A DNA stretch of 64,000 nucleotides. Origin: Paracoccus zhejiangensis. GTDB taxonomy: Bacteria; Pseudomonadota; Alphaproteobacteria; Rhodobacterales; Rhodobacteraceae. Numbering within the stretch: the stretch's first letter is position 1; each line of letters opens with the position of its first letter. The notes beneath the pieces were generated by a model. It was not told where the DNA came from. It did no database searches and was given only the letters and a program-made list of their open reading frames with translations. Shown here piece after piece: positions 58,167 to 63,990 of this stretch. The stretch is taken from assembly GCF_002847445.1 (NCBI RefSeq), contig NZ_CP025430.1, positions 2,666,001 to 2,730,000 of the forward strand, written 5' to 3'. Both the position numbers and the translations under genes were made by a program.

Positions 58167-58242
58167 GGGGCCATAGCTCAGTTGGTAGAGCGCATCGTTC
58201 GCAATGATGAGGCCAGGGGTTCGACTCCCCTTGGCTCCACCA
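58167..58242 (+). tRNA. tRNA-Ala(CGC)
   Basis: The 76-nt sequence folds into a full cloverleaf: acceptor GGGGCCA/TGGCTCC, D arm GCTC/GAGC, anticodon arm CATCG/TGATG with loop TTCGCAA (anticodon CGC, reading GCG), T arm AGGGG/CCCCT with TTCGACT, and the CCA end encoded. It abuts a lower-GC, IS-rich segment, so its 3' end may be an attachment site. Confidence 0.96.
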
Positions 58243-58397: not shown

Positions 58398-58855
58398 TGA
58401 ATAGCCCCGAGTTCCTTAGACGCCTTCGCGTCTTGTCATCTTCCACCGCTCGGACTCGGCAGGCGACAGCATCCCGCTCCTCGCAGGCTTGCGCTTCGGG
58501 TTGTATAACATTTCAATGCAATCGAACACGTTCTGCCTTGCTTCCTCGCGGGTCCTGTTGGCCCCGCGCCTGATCCGTTCGCGCTTGAGCAGATTGAAGA
58601 AGCTCACGGCGACCGCATTATCGTGACAGTTGCGAGGACGATTCATCGAATGGTCAAGATCGCAGCGCGCAAGAATGCCGTCCTGTCCATGCTGAGAACT
58701 GACTACCCTGATCTGAAGGAATCGGCGCCATTCCCTTCAATGCTCGCCGACAGACTGCCATAAGCATAGCTTGCAGGACGACATCCGTCGTTTGACAGTT
58801 TTGCCTCGACCAGCTGAGAACGGCGGTGAGAAAGTCGACCACGGTAGCGGCGGGA
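58398..58855 (-). pseudogene. IS3-family transposase OrfB remnant
   Basis: Two adjacent minus-strand frames encode C-terminal pieces of an IS3-type DDE transposase: upstream, T-T-D-V-V-L-Q-A-M-L-M-A-V and S-D-Q-G-S-Q-F; downstream after a frameshift near 58650, S-M-N-R-P-R-N-C-H-D-N-A-V with S-F-F-N-L-L-K-R-E-R and Y-N-P-K-R-K. The N-terminal half is missing. A likely right inverted repeat (TGAATAGCCCCGAG) marks the outer end at 58398. The other side is cut off near 58855, where the IS21 element begins. It cannot encode an active enzyme. Confidence 0.8.
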
Positions 58856-58932
58856 TGAGCCCGCTGCGGGCGGCGTAAAAGTCGTCCACCTTTACCCTTT
58901 CTGGCGACAGGGAGGGCGGGAGGATTTTCACC

Positions 58933-60420
58933 GTGGATTTGTATCGGAAGGTTCGCCTGGCTTGTTCAGAAGGCATGAGCCAGCGCGAGGCTGCGCGTCA
59001 GTTTGGGGTTTCCCGCGACAGCGTTCGGAAGATGTTGGCGTTCTCGGTTCCGCCTGGATACCGGCGGACGGCGCCGGTGAAGCGGCCGAAGCTGGATGGG
59101 TTCACCGAGATCATCGATGGCTGGCTGGAGGGGGATCGCGAGGTCCATCGAAAGCAACGGCACACGGCGAAGCGGGTATTCGAGCGGCTTCGCGATGAGC
59201 ATGGCTTCACCGGCGGCTATACGATCATCAAGGACTATATGCGGGAGCGCGAGCGGCGCGGCCGAGAGATTTTCGTGCCGCTAGCCCATCCGCCAGGACA
59301 TGCCCAGGCCGACTTCGGCGAGGCTGTGGTCGTCATCGGCGGCGTCGAGCAGAAGGCGCACTTCTTCGTTATGGACTTGCCGCACAGTGATGCCTGCTTC
59401 GTGCGCGCCTATCCCGCGGCGACAGCGGAAGCCTGGGTAGACGGCCACGTCCACGCCTTCGCCTTCTTCGGCAGGGTGCCGGTATCGGTCCTCTACGACA
59501 ACGATCGCTGTCTTGTTGCGAAGATCCTGGCGGACGGCACACGTCAGCGGGCCACGCTCTTCAGCGGGTTCCTGTCCCACTACCTGTTCCGAGACCGCTA
59601 TGGCCGCCCCGGCAAGGGGAACGACAAGGGCAACGCGGAAGGATTGGTCGGCTATTCCCGCCGCAACTTCATGGTCCCGGTCCCGCGGTTTGTGAGTTGG
59701 GCTTCGTTCAACGCCTATCTGGAGGAGCAGTGTCGCAAACGTCAGGCGGATGTTCTGCGCGGCCAGTCCGAGACCATCGGGGAACGCCTCGTGCGAGATC
59801 TGGTCGTGATGTCTGATCTGCCACCCGCGCCGTTCGATGCCTGCGACCAAGCCACCGGGCGAGTCAGTTCCCAAGCGCTGGTGCGCTACAAGACCAACGA
59901 TTACTCGGTGCCGGTCGCCTACGGCCACCGCGATGTCTGGATCAGGGGCTATGTCGACGAGGTTGTGATCGGCTGCGGTGGCGAGCTCATCGCACGCCAC
60001 CCCCGCTGCTATGACCGCGAGGACATGGTGTTCGATCCGGTGCATTACCTCCCGCTCATCGAGAGGAAGATCAATGCTTTGGATCAGGCCGCGCCTCTTG
60101 CCGAATGGAACCTGCCGCCGGAGTTCGCAACCCTGCGCCGCCTGATGGAGGCGCGGATGATCAAGGCGGGACGCCGGGAATATGTGCAGGTTTTGCGCCT
60201 GCTGGAAACCTTCGACATCGATGATCTCCACGCGGCCGTGAAGAAGGCCCTGCAATTGGGCGCTGTCGGCTTCGATGCCGTGAAGCACCTCGCTCTCTGC
60301 CATGTTGAGAAACGGCCGCCGAAGCTGGACCTCGATGTCTATCCCTACCTGCCGCGGGCCAACGTGGGGACCACCTCGGCGGCAAGCTACATGTCTCTGC
60401 TGTCGGGAGACGCGGCATGA
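58933..60420 (+). CDS. istA: IS21-family transposase IstA
   Basis: This 495-residue transposase begins with a helix-turn-helix (Q-R-E-A-A-R-Q-F-G-V-S-R near residue 17) and has the DDE catalytic core: D in Q-A-D-F-G-E-A near 125, D in V-L-Y-D-N-D near 190 and E in N-A-E-G-L-V near 237, followed by a C-terminal beta-rich domain. It cuts and joins the element ends with the help of IstB. The GTG start at 58933 is used. The frame is intact, so the element may be active. Confidence 0.93.
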   Translation: MDLYRKVRLACSEGMSQREAARQFGVSRDSVRKMLAFSVPPGYRRTAPVKRPKLDGFTEIIDGWLEGDREVHRKQRHTAKRVFERLRDEHGFTGGYTIIKDYMRERERRGREIFVPLAHPPGHAQADFGEAVVVIGGVEQKAHFFVMDLPHSDACFVRAYPAATAEAWVDGHVHAFAFFGRVPVSVLYDNDRCLVAKILADGTRQRATLFSGFLSHYLFRDRYGRPGKGNDKGNAEGLVGYSRRNFMVPVPRFVSWASFNAYLEEQCRKRQADVLRGQSETIGERLVRDLVVMSDLPPAPFDACDQATGRVSSQALVRYKTNDYSVPVAYGHRDVWIRGYVDEVVIGCGGELIARHPRCYDREDMVFDPVHYLPLIERKINALDQAAPLAEWNLPPEFATLRRLMEARMIKAGRREYVQVLRLLETFDIDDLHAAVKKALQLGAVGFDAVKHLALCHVEKRPPKLDLDVYPYLPRANVGTTSAASYMSLLSGDAA

Positions 60421-61181
60421 CCGGTGCGCCGCAGATCCTGCTTGCTCATCACCTGAAGACGCTGAAGCTCCCGACCTTCTTGCGGGAGCACGAGAAGCTG
60501 GCGCGCCAATGTGCAGCCGAGGGCCTGGACCACGTCCAGTTCCTCGCCCGACTGGTCGAACTGGAACTGATCGACCGCGAGGGACGGATGATCGAACGCC
60601 GGATCAAGGTTGCAAAGTTCCCCGCCAAGAAGAGCCTGGACAGCTTCGACTTCAAGGCGATCCCGAAGCTCAACAAGATGCAGGTGCTGGACCTTGCCCG
60701 TTGCGAATGGATCGAGCGGCGCGAAAACGTCATTGCGCTCGGACCGAGTGGCACGGGCAAGACGCATGTTGCTCTGGGGCTGGGACTGGCCGCTTGTCAG
60801 AAAGGAATGTCGGTCAGCTTCACTACGGCCGCGGCACTGGTCAACGAGTTGATGGAAGCCCGCGACGAGCGCCGCCTCCTGCGGCTCCAGAAGCAGCTGG
60901 CTTCGGTCAAACTGCTCATCATCGATGAACTGGGCTTCGTGCCTCTGTCAAAGACCGGCGCCGAGCTACTCTTCGAGATGATCTCGCAACGCTACGAGCG
61001 CGGCGCCACGCTCATCACCAGCAACCTGCCGTTCGACGAATGGACCGAGACCTTCGGAACAGAGCGGCTGACCGGCGCTCTGCTCGACCGCCTGACCCAC
61101 CACGTCAACATCCTCGAGATGAATGGCGAGAGCTACAGGCTCGCGCAAAGTCGGGCCCGAAACGCCGGCCAGACCCCATAG
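60417..61181 (+). CDS. istB: IS21-family helper ATPase IstB
   Basis: This 254-residue AAA+ ATPase has Walker A G-P-S-G-T-G-K-T-H near residue 108-116 and Walker B L-L-I-I-D-E-L-G near 168. IstB selects target DNA and activates IstA. Its ATG overlaps the istA stop by 4 bp (ATGA). The gene is intact. Confidence 0.95.
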   Translation: MTGAPQILLAHHLKTLKLPTFLREHEKLARQCAAEGLDHVQFLARLVELELIDREGRMIERRIKVAKFPAKKSLDSFDFKAIPKLNKMQVLDLARCEWIERRENVIALGPSGTGKTHVALGLGLAACQKGMSVSFTTAAALVNELMEARDERRLLRLQKQLASVKLLIIDELGFVPLSKTGAELLFEMISQRYERGATLITSNLPFDEWTETFGTERLTGALLDRLTHHVNILEMNGESYRLAQSRARNAGQTP

Positions 61182-61302
61182 AAAACCGCAACGCGCGCTT
61201 GAGCCCGCCGCTCGGGCTACGCCCTCCCGGCGGGCTCAAGCGCGCAAGAAAGTGGCCTGCTTTTGCGCCGCCCCGTGGCCGGTTTTTGCTCCGCCGTTGA
61301 CA

Positions 61303-61440
61303 GGTTTCGAGGCAGGCGAAGGTGATATCGTCGGCCTGATCCTTGATCCGACGGACGAGGCCGAACTGGCAGGCAATGCGCAGCCATTGATCGTCGGCGT
61401 CGCCTTCGACGCTTTGGCTCAGGATTGCTTCTGCTTCTGA
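61303..61440. other. Right flank of IS21: truncated gene of unknown identity
   Basis: Immediately after the IS21 end both strands are open. The plus frame reads G-D-I-V-G-L-I-L-D-P-T-D-E-A-E-L and stops at 61440, 11 bp before a hairpin; the minus frame reads D-Q-W-L-R-I-A-C-Q-F-G-L-V-R-R. I do not recognise either. It is probably the remaining end of a gene cut by the insertion or by a rearrangement. Confidence 0.35.
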
Positions 61441-61479: not shown

Positions 61480-61586
61480 GGCTATTCCGGCTTCCAAGCG
61501 CCGGGATCGGGATCGCGGGTGCGGTTCTGTCGTGAAGAGTGGCGGTAACTTGGATTGCCGTCTGGTAAACCTGAAGGAGCTCTAAG

Positions 61587-61778
61587 ATGAAGAAAATCGC
61601 TCTGACTGGCCTGATGGCCAGCCTGACCACCGCACTGGCGAGCGGCGTCGCTTTCGCCAACATGGGGCCGCGCCCGACCCCAGTCCCGGAAATCAGCGCC
61701 CTCGAAGGCACCGCCGCGATCGCCGCGCTGGCCGCCATCGTGCTGCTGACCTGGGAGCGTCGTCGTCGCGCCCACTGA
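61587..61778 (+). CDS. VPEID-CTERM-type sorted peptide (exosortase substrate)
   Basis: This 63-residue protein consists of a signal peptide (K-K-I-A-L-T-G then hydrophobic, ending A-F-A near residue 24), a stretch of only about eight residues (N-M-G-P-R-P-T-P), the sorting signal V-P-E-I-S near 33-37, a hydrophobic helix (about 41-56) and a basic tail E-R-R-R-R-A-H. This tripartite C-terminus is an exosortase recognition signal; the V-P-E-I form is that of the VPEID-CTERM class. AAGGAG lies 9 bp before the ATG. The dedicated enzyme gene follows. What remains after processing would be a peptide of about ten residues. Confidence 0.85.
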   Translation: MKKIALTGLMASLTTALASGVAFANMGPRPTPVPEISALEGTAAIAALAAIVLLTWERRRRAH

Positions 61779-61803
61779 TCGGTTTTTGTCGATCGGTATA
61801 TTG

Positions 61804-61829
61804 ACAGGCCCGCCCTTCGGCGGGCCTGT
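61804..61829 (+). terminator. Hairpin between the sorted peptide and exosortase genes
   Basis: A perfect 11-bp stem (61804-61814 with 61819-61829) and a CTTC loop, followed by a short TCATTCC. It lies 25 bp after the substrate stop and 35 bp before the exosortase start. It may act as a partial terminator, giving more substrate than enzyme. Confidence 0.65.
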
Positions 61830-61864
61830 TCATTCCAGAACCTGTTCTTCAACGATTGCCTGCG

Positions 61865-63487
61865 ATGTCAGATAGCCGTGTGATACCCGCCCGTCCCCCG
61901 TTCCGCCCGCTGCTGCTGGCGGCGTTTCTGCTGGTCGCCCAGTTCCTTGTCATCGGGGTGACCTTCAAGCACGGGATCGAGTTCCGCTGTCTCGACAACT
62001 GGCCGCAACCGGCCTGTGCCACGGCCAGCAAGTCACTGGCGGCGCTCTATTGCATCATTGCCGCGATCGGGCTTTTCGCGCTGCTGCGTCCGGCGCTGTT
62101 TCGCACCCTTCTGGCCGAGGCTGGCCGCAGCCTGAAGCCGCTGGGGCTGAACCTCGCCGGGTTCGCGCTGGCCATGCTGCCCGCCTTGTTCATGCGGCAG
62201 GGGCAAGGGGCAGCCATGCTGTTGCCGGCCTTCGCGCTGTGGGCACTGGGCATGGGGTTACTGCTGGTCGGGTTGCTGGGTTGGCTGGCGCCCTGGCGCT
62301 TGTGGCGGCAGTTCCTGCGCGCCGGGGGCGGCGCGCTGGCCGTGGTCGTGGCCGCCGGTGCGGCCGCGCCTGCGCTTGCGGTCAAGCTGCAACCGGTCTG
62401 GCAACTGGACACCATCGCAGACCTGACCTTCAGTGCCGTTGCCTGGCTGATCGATGCCGCGGGCTACGTGACCCTCTCGGACCCGGTGCAGAAGCATATC
62501 GGGACCGAGGATTTCATGATCTCGGTTGCCCCTGTCTGCTCGGGAATCGAGGGCATCGCCCTGGTCACGATCTTCGTCAGCCTCTACCTGTGGCTGTTTC
62601 GTGCCGAGCTGCGCTTTCCCCATGCCCTGCTGCTCTACCCGCTGGGTATCCTGGCCAGTGCCACGCTGAACGTGGTGCGGATCGCCGTGCTGTTGATCAT
62701 CGGGATCGAGGGCCGGCCAGAGCTGGCCGTCGGCGGCTTCCACAGCCATGCCGGATGGGTCATGTTCACCGCTGTGGCGCTGGGGATCATCGCCGTGGCG
62801 CGGCAGATCGGCTGGCTGCACCGCGCGCCGACGGCCGCCGTGGCCACCGCACCGGAATTGCCGCCGCTGCGCCGTGACCCGGTGGCGGCACGCATCCTGC
62901 CCTTCGCGGTCTTCATGCTGACCGCCGTGGTCGTCCCCGCGATCAGCCAGAACCCGGCGATGTTCTACCCGATCCGGGTGCTGCTTCTCGCCGCCGCCGT
63001 TGCGCTGGTCTGGCCGGTCATCCGCGATCTGCCCCGCCGCGTCGCGCCCTTGTCCTGGATCGCCGGTGCAGCTGTTGGGGTGATGTGGATCGCCATCCCC
63101 GTGACCCCGATCGACGGCCCCCCGCCCTACGGCAGCCTGGCGGGAGGGGCGCTGGCCTTGTGGTTCCTGTTCCGGGGCATCGGCACGGTGCTGCTGGTGC
63201 CGCTGGTCGAGGAGCTGTTCTTCCGCGACTACCTGGAAAGCCGCATCCGCGGTGCCGCACCCGACCAGCCCGCTCCCCTGTGGCGGGTTTTGCTTGCGGC
63301 GACGATCACTGCCGGCCTTTTCGCCGCCCTTCACGACCGATGGATCGAGGCGCTGATCGCCGGCCTGGTCTTTTCGCTGGTCACCCGGCGAACCGGACGG
63401 ATCTCCGATGCGATCGCGGCCCATGCCATCGCCAACCTGATCGTCTTTGGCGTGGCTGTCGGTACCGGCAACCTGGCGATTATCTGA
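61865..63487 (+). CDS. xrtE: Exosortase E/CPBP protease fusion
   Basis: This 540-residue membrane protein joins two domains. The N-terminal exosortase domain (to about residue 310) has the catalytic C225 in V-A-P-V-C-S-G-I-E-G, R272 in N-V-V-R-I-A and H295 in F-H-S-H-A-G-W. The C-terminal domain is a CAAX/CPBP-type protease with E449-E450-x-x-x-R454 (E-E-L-F-F-R), H490 in A-A-L-H-D-R and the late H-A-I-A-N segment. About fifteen membrane helices are likely. This fusion defines exosortase E of the VPEID-CTERM system. I start at ATG 61865; TTG 61856 in frame is possible. It should process and perhaps transfer the peptide encoded immediately upstream. Confidence 0.9.
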   Translation: MSDSRVIPARPPFRPLLLAAFLLVAQFLVIGVTFKHGIEFRCLDNWPQPACATASKSLAALYCIIAAIGLFALLRPALFRTLLAEAGRSLKPLGLNLAGFALAMLPALFMRQGQGAAMLLPAFALWALGMGLLLVGLLGWLAPWRLWRQFLRAGGGALAVVVAAGAAAPALAVKLQPVWQLDTIADLTFSAVAWLIDAAGYVTLSDPVQKHIGTEDFMISVAPVCSGIEGIALVTIFVSLYLWLFRAELRFPHALLLYPLGILASATLNVVRIAVLLIIGIEGRPELAVGGFHSHAGWVMFTAVALGIIAVARQIGWLHRAPTAAVATAPELPPLRRDPVAARILPFAVFMLTAVVVPAISQNPAMFYPIRVLLLAAAVALVWPVIRDLPRRVAPLSWIAGAAVGVMWIAIPVTPIDGPPPYGSLAGGALALWFLFRGIGTVLLVPLVEELFFRDYLESRIRGAAPDQPAPLWRVLLAATITAGLFAALHDRWIEALIAGLVFSLVTRRTGRISDAIAAHAIANLIVFGVAVGTGNLAII

Positions 63488-63562
63488 AGGCCGGGCGCGG
63501 CATCTCGCCCGAACGATGTCGCCTGCGAAGGATCCGCAAAGCACCCCGTCAGAGGCGGGTGA

Positions 63563-63990
63563 TCACAGCCCCAGCTTCGTTGCCACCAACTCGTCCACGA
63601 CGGCCGGATTGGCTTTTGCCGCCAGTGGCCCTCCCGCCAGTGGCCTTCAGCACCGGGCCGACGAGCCAGCCGGCGAGTTTCGGATTCGCCTTCTCCCTCT
63701 CGACCTGAGCCGGCTTCGCGGCGATGATCTCGTCCACGTCGGTTTCGATGGACCCCAGACCGGAGACCTGCTTCATGCCTCGCGCGGCCACGATCTCGGC
63801 GGGTTCGCCGCCCTCGGCCCACGGAATTTCGATCAGGTCCTTGGCGATCCAGCCCGAGGCGACCAGGTCGACTACTCCGTCAAGCTACGCTGCGGAAATC
63901 GGCGATGTCTCGATGGTCAGTCCCTTCTTGTTCATCCGACCGAACAACTCGTTGATGACCCTTCTGACCTGCCATGAGATTTTTCCTCCA
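63563..63990 (-). pseudogene. gatB: Decayed gatB fragment (Asp/Glu-tRNA amidotransferase subunit B C-terminus)
   Basis: The minus strand reads V-I-N-E-L-F-G-R-M-N-K-K-G, then S-P-I-S-A-A, an in-frame TAG at 63887-63885 where GatB has Gln, then a segment missing several residues ([14 protein letters not shown]), then [11 protein letters not shown] and [12 protein letters not shown] 15-bp tandem duplication (GGCCACTGGCGG units) and an extra A in an A-run shift the frame before [11 protein letters not shown]. Only the C-terminal YqeY/tail part is present, and it continues toward the window edge. It is a remnant, not a working subunit. Confidence 0.8.

Follow-up and report, generated by a model that had tools for sequence, protein, structure and literature searches.

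The window, a stretch of 64,000 nucleotides of the Paracoccus zhejiangensis contig NZ_CP025430.1 (positions 2,666,001 to 2,730,000), carries near its right end a tiny gene with a VPEI sorting tail followed by an exosortase E gene (xrtE), both preceded by the remains of a third gene that lie directly against an insertion element. The features of this region are the following:

58810..61302, plus strand: IS21-type insertion element with istA (58933-60420) and istB (60417-61181), recognised by Pfam IstB_IS21 (257.8 bits) and Mu-transpos_C_2
61303..61440, plus strand: 3' stump of a large adhesin gene of probable thioester type, 45 codons plus stop, not intact, found by profile match
61574..61579, plus strand: Shine-Dalgarno-like AAGGAG of the tiny protein, read from the sequence
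61587..61778, plus strand: tiny VPEI-tailed protein of 63 residues, identified by TIGR04161 (33.4 bits, cut-off 33) and by its relatives
61804..61829, plus strand: GC-rich hairpin 3' of the tiny gene, ACAGGCCCGCC CTTC GGCGGGCCTGT, whose stem resembles a terminator and lacks a long stretch of T
61865..63487, plus strand: exosortase E fused to a CPBP (Rce1-like) intramembrane protease, 540 residues (TIGR04162, PF09721, PF02517)

Both intact reading frames lie where the preliminary description of this DNA had placed them. The enzyme matches TIGR04162 (exosortase E/CPBP protease) with 414.9 bits (cut-off 150) over residues 22–540, so that both halves are covered, and its domains are recognised by PF09721 (52.4 bits) and PF02517 (53.4 bits); the match to TIGR03008 reached 104.4 bits (cut-off 81). 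With M1 at 61865, the exosortase residues Cys225, Arg272 and His293 are invariant in all 30 aligned XrtE sequences. The catalytic residues proposed earlier are thus retained for C225, R272, E449, E450 and H490, while His295 has to give way to His293: position 295 is Phe or Tyr in some of the 30 sequences, its His being invariant among the 16 closer ones. The CPBP part is complete, with E449, E450, R454, F486, H490, H520 and N524 conserved in 30/30 sequences, and we take these residues to represent the EExxxR, FxxxH and HxxxN motifs. Only one PF09721 exosortase is present in the genome, together with a single VPEI protein above the cut-off, and the two therefore constitute a dedicated pair, as had been proposed, in the sense in which the accessible part of Haft's work uses the term (PMC3237569). 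The fusion itself is not new, since four EpsH-CAAX protease fusions are already mentioned in the accessible part of the 2006 report by Haft (PMC1569441).

The tiny protein is composed of a signal peptide, a tail of about eight residues (NMGPRPTP), the VPEIS motif, a hydrophobic helix and the basic end WERRRRAH, the AxA-type signal-peptide cut being positioned by eye. Its match to TIGR04161 (VPEID-CTERM) is marginal, 0.4 bit above the NCBI cut-off. Translation starts at the ATG at 61587, preceded by the AAGGAG element, and the relatives begin at the matching site (MKK...); this common start indicates no longer N-terminus, and the mature part of about ten residues given in the preliminary description stands. 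At E≤10 the genome contains three TIGR04161 matches, one of them above the cut-off. The other two, weak at 17.1 and 12.7 bits, look spurious and overlap an opposite-strand MFS transporter-like frame and a CcmF-like frame (named by eye), and the idea of many hidden VPEI clients in this genome was rejected given the single match above the cut-off. A strict terminator scan showed no intrinsic terminator after the tiny gene; a looser stem test was positive.

The truncated third gene (61303-61440) had been missed in the preliminary description. Its sequence, GFEAGEGDIVGLILDP...QPLIVGVAFDALAQDCFCF, begins at the base right after the right end of the IS21 element. A profile built from the C-terminal 260 residues of the adhesins of related loci was run with hmmsearch over the open reading frames of the window together with those of 41 retrieved loci, and it matched positions 61303-61437 at E 7e-14 (48.1 bits, against at most 15.0 bits for 1303 scored shuffles). 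The stump is 55% identical to residues 926-965 of the adhesin protein of Rhodobacter sp. CZR27. When this protein was used as the query against the P. zhejiangensis genome, the stump and one weak Ig-like match were all that appeared. The position of the stump against the element and the outcome of this search indicate that the adhesin gene has been truncated, its 5' part being either gone or unrecognisable by the CZR27 query. Seven further copies of the element occur in the genome at 100% identity, with matches running from window positions 58810-58815 to 61302-61303, which points to recent transposition. The anatomy of the cassette and the truncation of its adhesin gene by IS21 at this locus are regarded as very likely.

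To the left of the element, a tRNA-like sequence (58170-58240) and an IS3-like transposase fragment (58416-58646) were noted by eye, so that the pair is flanked by mobile debris. Soon after xrtE, on the minus strand, lies a frame at 63549-63791 that by eye looks like a fragment and resembles the C-terminal end of GatB.

In the relatives, an adhesin-like protein of approximately 450–1900 residues is encoded immediately upstream of the tiny gene. It consists of an SdrD_B stalk, a C-terminal thioester-type domain and a CxC end. No sorting signal was found on these adhesins, and no Sec signal was seen by eye on those with visible starts. The plasmid relatives of Rhodobacter sp. CZR27, Alloyangia pacifica and Rhodobacteraceae bacterium SC52 carry an adhesin of 673–989 residues before the tiny gene, with Pfam SdrD_B in all three and Big_9 in two. 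PF08341 matched two of these three full proteins below its gathering cut-off of 22 (20.1 and 15.6 bits), the third giving no match, and it matched 21 of 26 adhesin domains at E≤0.1 (best 8e-5), likewise below the curated cut-off. All 16 aligned adhesin domains share Cys109, Gln182 (within QxAIW) and the terminal CxC; in the set of 26 the Gln remains invariant and Cys109 is present in at least 90%. An AlphaFold model of the C-terminal domain, obtained from 26 sequences, has a pLDDT of 92.5. A Foldseek search of 350,542 PDB chains placed the thioester domain 5a0n at rank 1 (probability 0.80, TM 0.43/0.51), at a non-significant E value of 0.15; no match was found at E≤0.001, and a sequence search of the PDB with the domain found nothing. 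Taken as a whole, the C-terminal domain is in all likelihood of the thioester type, with the bond itself predicted. Type I secretion genes lie near the adhesins of L064, L080, L066 (slightly under the cut-off) and L162 (HlyD), and were not seen near that of L076; type I secretion was consequently rejected as a fixed part of the cassette.

The adhesin profile matched all 16 loci in which the substrate gene lies upstream, each with an intact adhesin gene next to it, and none of the convergent VPEIDAS-type loci among the 41. Of 248 genomes surveyed in the family, 32 contain xrtE and 31 a VPEI substrate (E≤1e-3), and the search for the pair suggested earlier returned both together in 29 (Fisher p 4e-32); in 22 of the 31 the substrate scored above the curated cut-off. 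A full-length adhesin domain was found in 15 of the 248 genomes, other profile matches covering mainly the Ig-like part and not being counted as full-length, and 13 of these 15 have a VPEI protein and 12 have xrtE (Fisher p 1e-11 and 9e-10). Among 125 genomes of the genus, 22 carry xrtE, 16 the full-length adhesin and 13 both (p 1.4e-9), 12 of these 13 in the intact three-gene order and one with the genes approximately 10 kb apart. The type of tiny protein follows the adhesin: VPEISALEG...TWERRRRA-type proteins occur at 14 of the 16 adhesin loci of the genus, and VPEID[LY]-type proteins at all six complete xrtE loci that have no adhesin.

A profile scan of genome contigs returned 43 loci, 24 of them full-length and alphaproteobacterial (L139–L161 and L163; L139, L141, L145, L147, L153 and L160 duplicate loci of the family survey; in the same way, L189 and G961 stand for one record). 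The tiny protein is directly downstream in 21 of the 24 and xrtE lies within the locus in 16. In the remaining eight, xrtE is present elsewhere in the genome for L140 (about 6 kb further on), L149, L151 and L157, and a genome-wide search did not find it for L145, L148, L154 and L159. The adhesin and the tiny protein are still adjacent in L140, L149 and L157, with xrtE located elsewhere, and they lie side by side in 5/5 plasmid records. Adhesins without the tiny protein also exist (L148, L151, L154, G063, G001 and G645, as well as L162, L164, L170, L236 and L238). In Pseudomonadota at large, one of 398 genomes matched the adhesin at E≤1e-15; it belongs to the same family and shows no tiny protein.

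In 19 of the 32 xrtE genomes of the family the tiny protein type is present and the full-length adhesin was not found. In a tree of 52 XrtE sequences, none of the loci examined for one clade of 19 members (98/93) contains the adhesin. The presence of the adhesin requires six changes on this tree against 17.6 in shuffles (0/500 as low), and the window enzyme, labelled by its stump, falls within a supported set of ten sequences, eight of which have the adhesin. Outside the clade, six sequences have no adhesin in the locus: L083, L182, L186 and L187 carry one elsewhere in the genome, and none was seen for L063 and L087. The two-gene system of the preliminary description thus does not apply to the present locus, where the stump is found and where the clade has an upstream adhesin, while it may hold for the branch represented by the 19 genomes.

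The tails of the tiny proteins were compared in 34 proteins encoded beside adhesins. Mean pairwise identity is 73% for the sorting part and 14% for the tail (cuts placed by script; L142 is mis-cut and L155 has no cut), and the alignment of the residues before VPEI, proposed in the preliminary description, revealed no conserved mature peptide. The tails are 6–18 residues long (median 11). Two Cys residues are present in 20/34, none in 14/34 and a single one in no case, a distribution without odd counts that never appeared in 20,000 runs of random placement (hand-cut tails, kinship ignored) and that suggests a folded loop in part of them. Lys is absent from 29/34 tails and Cys from 14/34, so that the tail offers no universal chemical partner. 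A mixed disulfide between the adhesin CxC and a tail Cys was not retained as a general solution, as the CxC is kept even beside the Cys-less tails (14/34). A stem of at least 9 bp is found within the first 75 nt after the stop codon of the tiny gene in 32/33 loci, compared with 88/1320 random windows, and through this GC-rich hairpin the adhesin and the tiny protein may be made in excess over the enzyme.

A further case was found in a second phylum. In Verrucomicrobiae bacterium DG1235, an adhesin with the same N-terminal motif and CxC-type end as its alphaproteobacterial counterparts is followed, 374 nt downstream, by a VPDSG-CTERM protein of 59 residues (L165 7218-7394; TIGR03778, 41.5 bits, cut-off 22) composed of a signal peptide, about ten residues and the VPDSG-CTERM signal. 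The genome gave no match to TIGR04162 and contains one ordinary exosortase (a 316-residue frame with no CPBP half), 69 kb away on the contig. No other observation hints as strongly that the tiny protein and the adhesin work together as this locus, where the anatomy and the neighbour are the same and the sorting signal is a different one. DG1235 is the sole match among 288 genomes of its phylum, no full-length adhesin being found in the other 287, and the VPDSG case is therefore single.

The pair in the window is what is left, orphaned, of a three-gene cassette for surface display made up of the adhesin, the tiny VPEI-CTERM protein and the exosortase E/CPBP enzyme. As to its function, we tentatively propose, on the basis of gene order and sequence, that the tiny protein may provide the adhesin, as a distinct polypeptide, with its sorting tail or anchor, a possibility that we regard as substantial although short of probable. 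According to this proposal, the adhesin, devoid of a Sec signal and of a sorting tail, would use a different export pathway, possibly type I secretion, and the tiny protein would pass through Sec and be retained by means of its C-terminal helix. After cutting at VPEI, XrtE would attach the short tail to a lipid or glycan acceptor in the envelope; the remaining helix may be removed or cut again by the CPBP half. Once displayed, the tail would hold the adhesin at the surface or help to assemble it there, so that the sorting signal, carried by a polypeptide of its own, would act in trans. This strain has lost the adhesin, and the pair is probably idle or otherwise employed. A stricter form, in which the processed tail is captured, possibly covalently through the adhesin thioester or the CxC, and thereby fixes the tail-less adhesin to the envelope, is unlikely; if it were correct, DG1235 would provide a further example, with another exosortase class.

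Other explanations account for parts of the same data. The tiny protein might take part in adhesin export as an assembly, pilot or regulatory factor whose membrane form matters, with turnover by XrtE/CPBP releasing or switching off the adhesin and no covalent anchoring of a tail. The close spacing of the adhesin and tiny genes, the conservation of the sorting and helix part (73%) over the tail (14%) and the complete motifs of the fused CPBP half would all agree with such a role. The motif, the helix and the basic end are, however, those expected of a substrate, and in DG1235 the pairing involves a different sorting signal and an exosortase of the plain kind, which has no CPBP half; this explanation appears somewhat unlikely. 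The processed tail could instead be the product itself, coupled to lipid or exopolysaccharide, with the adhesin merely binding the decorated polymer. The relatives L063, L065 and L190 lie in or near polysaccharide loci, and exosortase clients elsewhere are thought, although unproven, to tie the surface to EPS (accessible part of PMC12188702). Against this, EPS genes are missing next to the pair in the window and at many other loci, and the tails lack conservation and are not consistently enriched in glycosylation-type residues; we consider decoration of a polymer quite unlikely.

The secreted or lipid/glycan-linked signal micro-peptide put forward in the preliminary description would suit the small size of the product, the pattern of zero or two Cys, which suggests a folded loop in some tails, and the fast change of the tails, which could mean strain-specific signals. 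The tails nevertheless share 14% identity and change even within one genus, and no receptor or regulator gene recurs in the neighbour clusters, the recurrent partner being the adhesin. A signal was for these reasons rejected as the first choice and is now very unlikely; the free form of the peptide is weakened, while a lipid- or glycan-linked peptide survives as part of the mechanism preferred here. Simple neighbourhood, in which the adhesin and the exosortase pair share islands or plasmids without working together, is improbable to a similar degree. Both are indeed patchy, each is found without the other and several copies reside on plasmids, but order and spacing are kept across deep divergence (aligned XrtE sequences are mostly 32–58% identical), the type of tiny protein tracks the adhesin within the genus, and a second phylum shows the pairing too, with a different signal.

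With respect to known systems, the locus belongs with VPEID-CTERM/exosortase E (TIGR04161 and TIGR04162), both cut-offs being passed by adjacent genes with one substrate per genome, and differs in that the VPEISALEG...WERRRRA type of this clade scores at or under the cut-off and accompanies an adhesin gene. In the open-access literature we found neither a description of an adhesin partner for exosortase E/VPEID-CTERM nor an assigned role for exosortase E. The adhesin of the relatives resembles the Gram-positive TED adhesins with sortase LPXTG tails (TIE proteins), as presented in the accessible part of PMC8092201, in its Ig/SdrD_B-like stalk, in the invariant Cys and QxAIW Gln and in having a TED as best, if non-significant, PDB fold match. 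It departs from them in the C-terminal instead of N-terminal location of the domain, in the CxC end, in its Gram-negative host and in showing no Sec signal and no sorting tail of its own. Exosortase and CPBP also occur together in PEP-CTERM systems with a fused or adjacent CAAX-type protease (TIGR03008; accessible part of PMC1569441). PEP-CTERM genomes often have many clients with large cargo, in contrast to the single client with almost no cargo seen here. VPDSG-CTERM (TIGR03778) provides, in DG1235, a 59-residue protein that has the same anatomy and neighbours an adhesin of the same type, and is distinguished by another signal class and by a plain exosortase 69 kb away.

The products and attachment points of exosortases are unproven, and a tiny client beside a thioester-type adhesin offers a small, concrete and testable model with one enzyme, one product of about ten residues and one candidate partner. 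If the tail does act in trans, a sorting signal would be supplied by a polypeptide of its own, and Gram-negative bacteria would have a route to display thioester adhesins. For orphan tiny sorting-signal proteins in general, a truncated or distant cargo gene should be looked for before they are named signal peptides.

Full-size clients are also possible for the XrtE family, as five frames of 203–539 codons with VPEV...WERRR tails lie near the divergent XrtE of G141 (L085 12474-18574); the tail may thus occur in cis or nearly alone. The neighbour of xrtE in G017 (L087 9608-9901) has an APEI tail and no clear signal peptide. Neighbouring genes were predicted with a home-made gene caller and named by eye. 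By this criterion the adhesin-less loci are often near housekeeping genes, an odd site for a surface system, the pairs of L081, L096, L103 and L104 adjoining rpoC-, rpsL-, rpsG- or fusA-like genes. One Alloyangia pacifica plasmid (L065) carries, in addition to the exosortase E cassette, an XrtD/VPLPA-CTERM set with polysaccharide genes.
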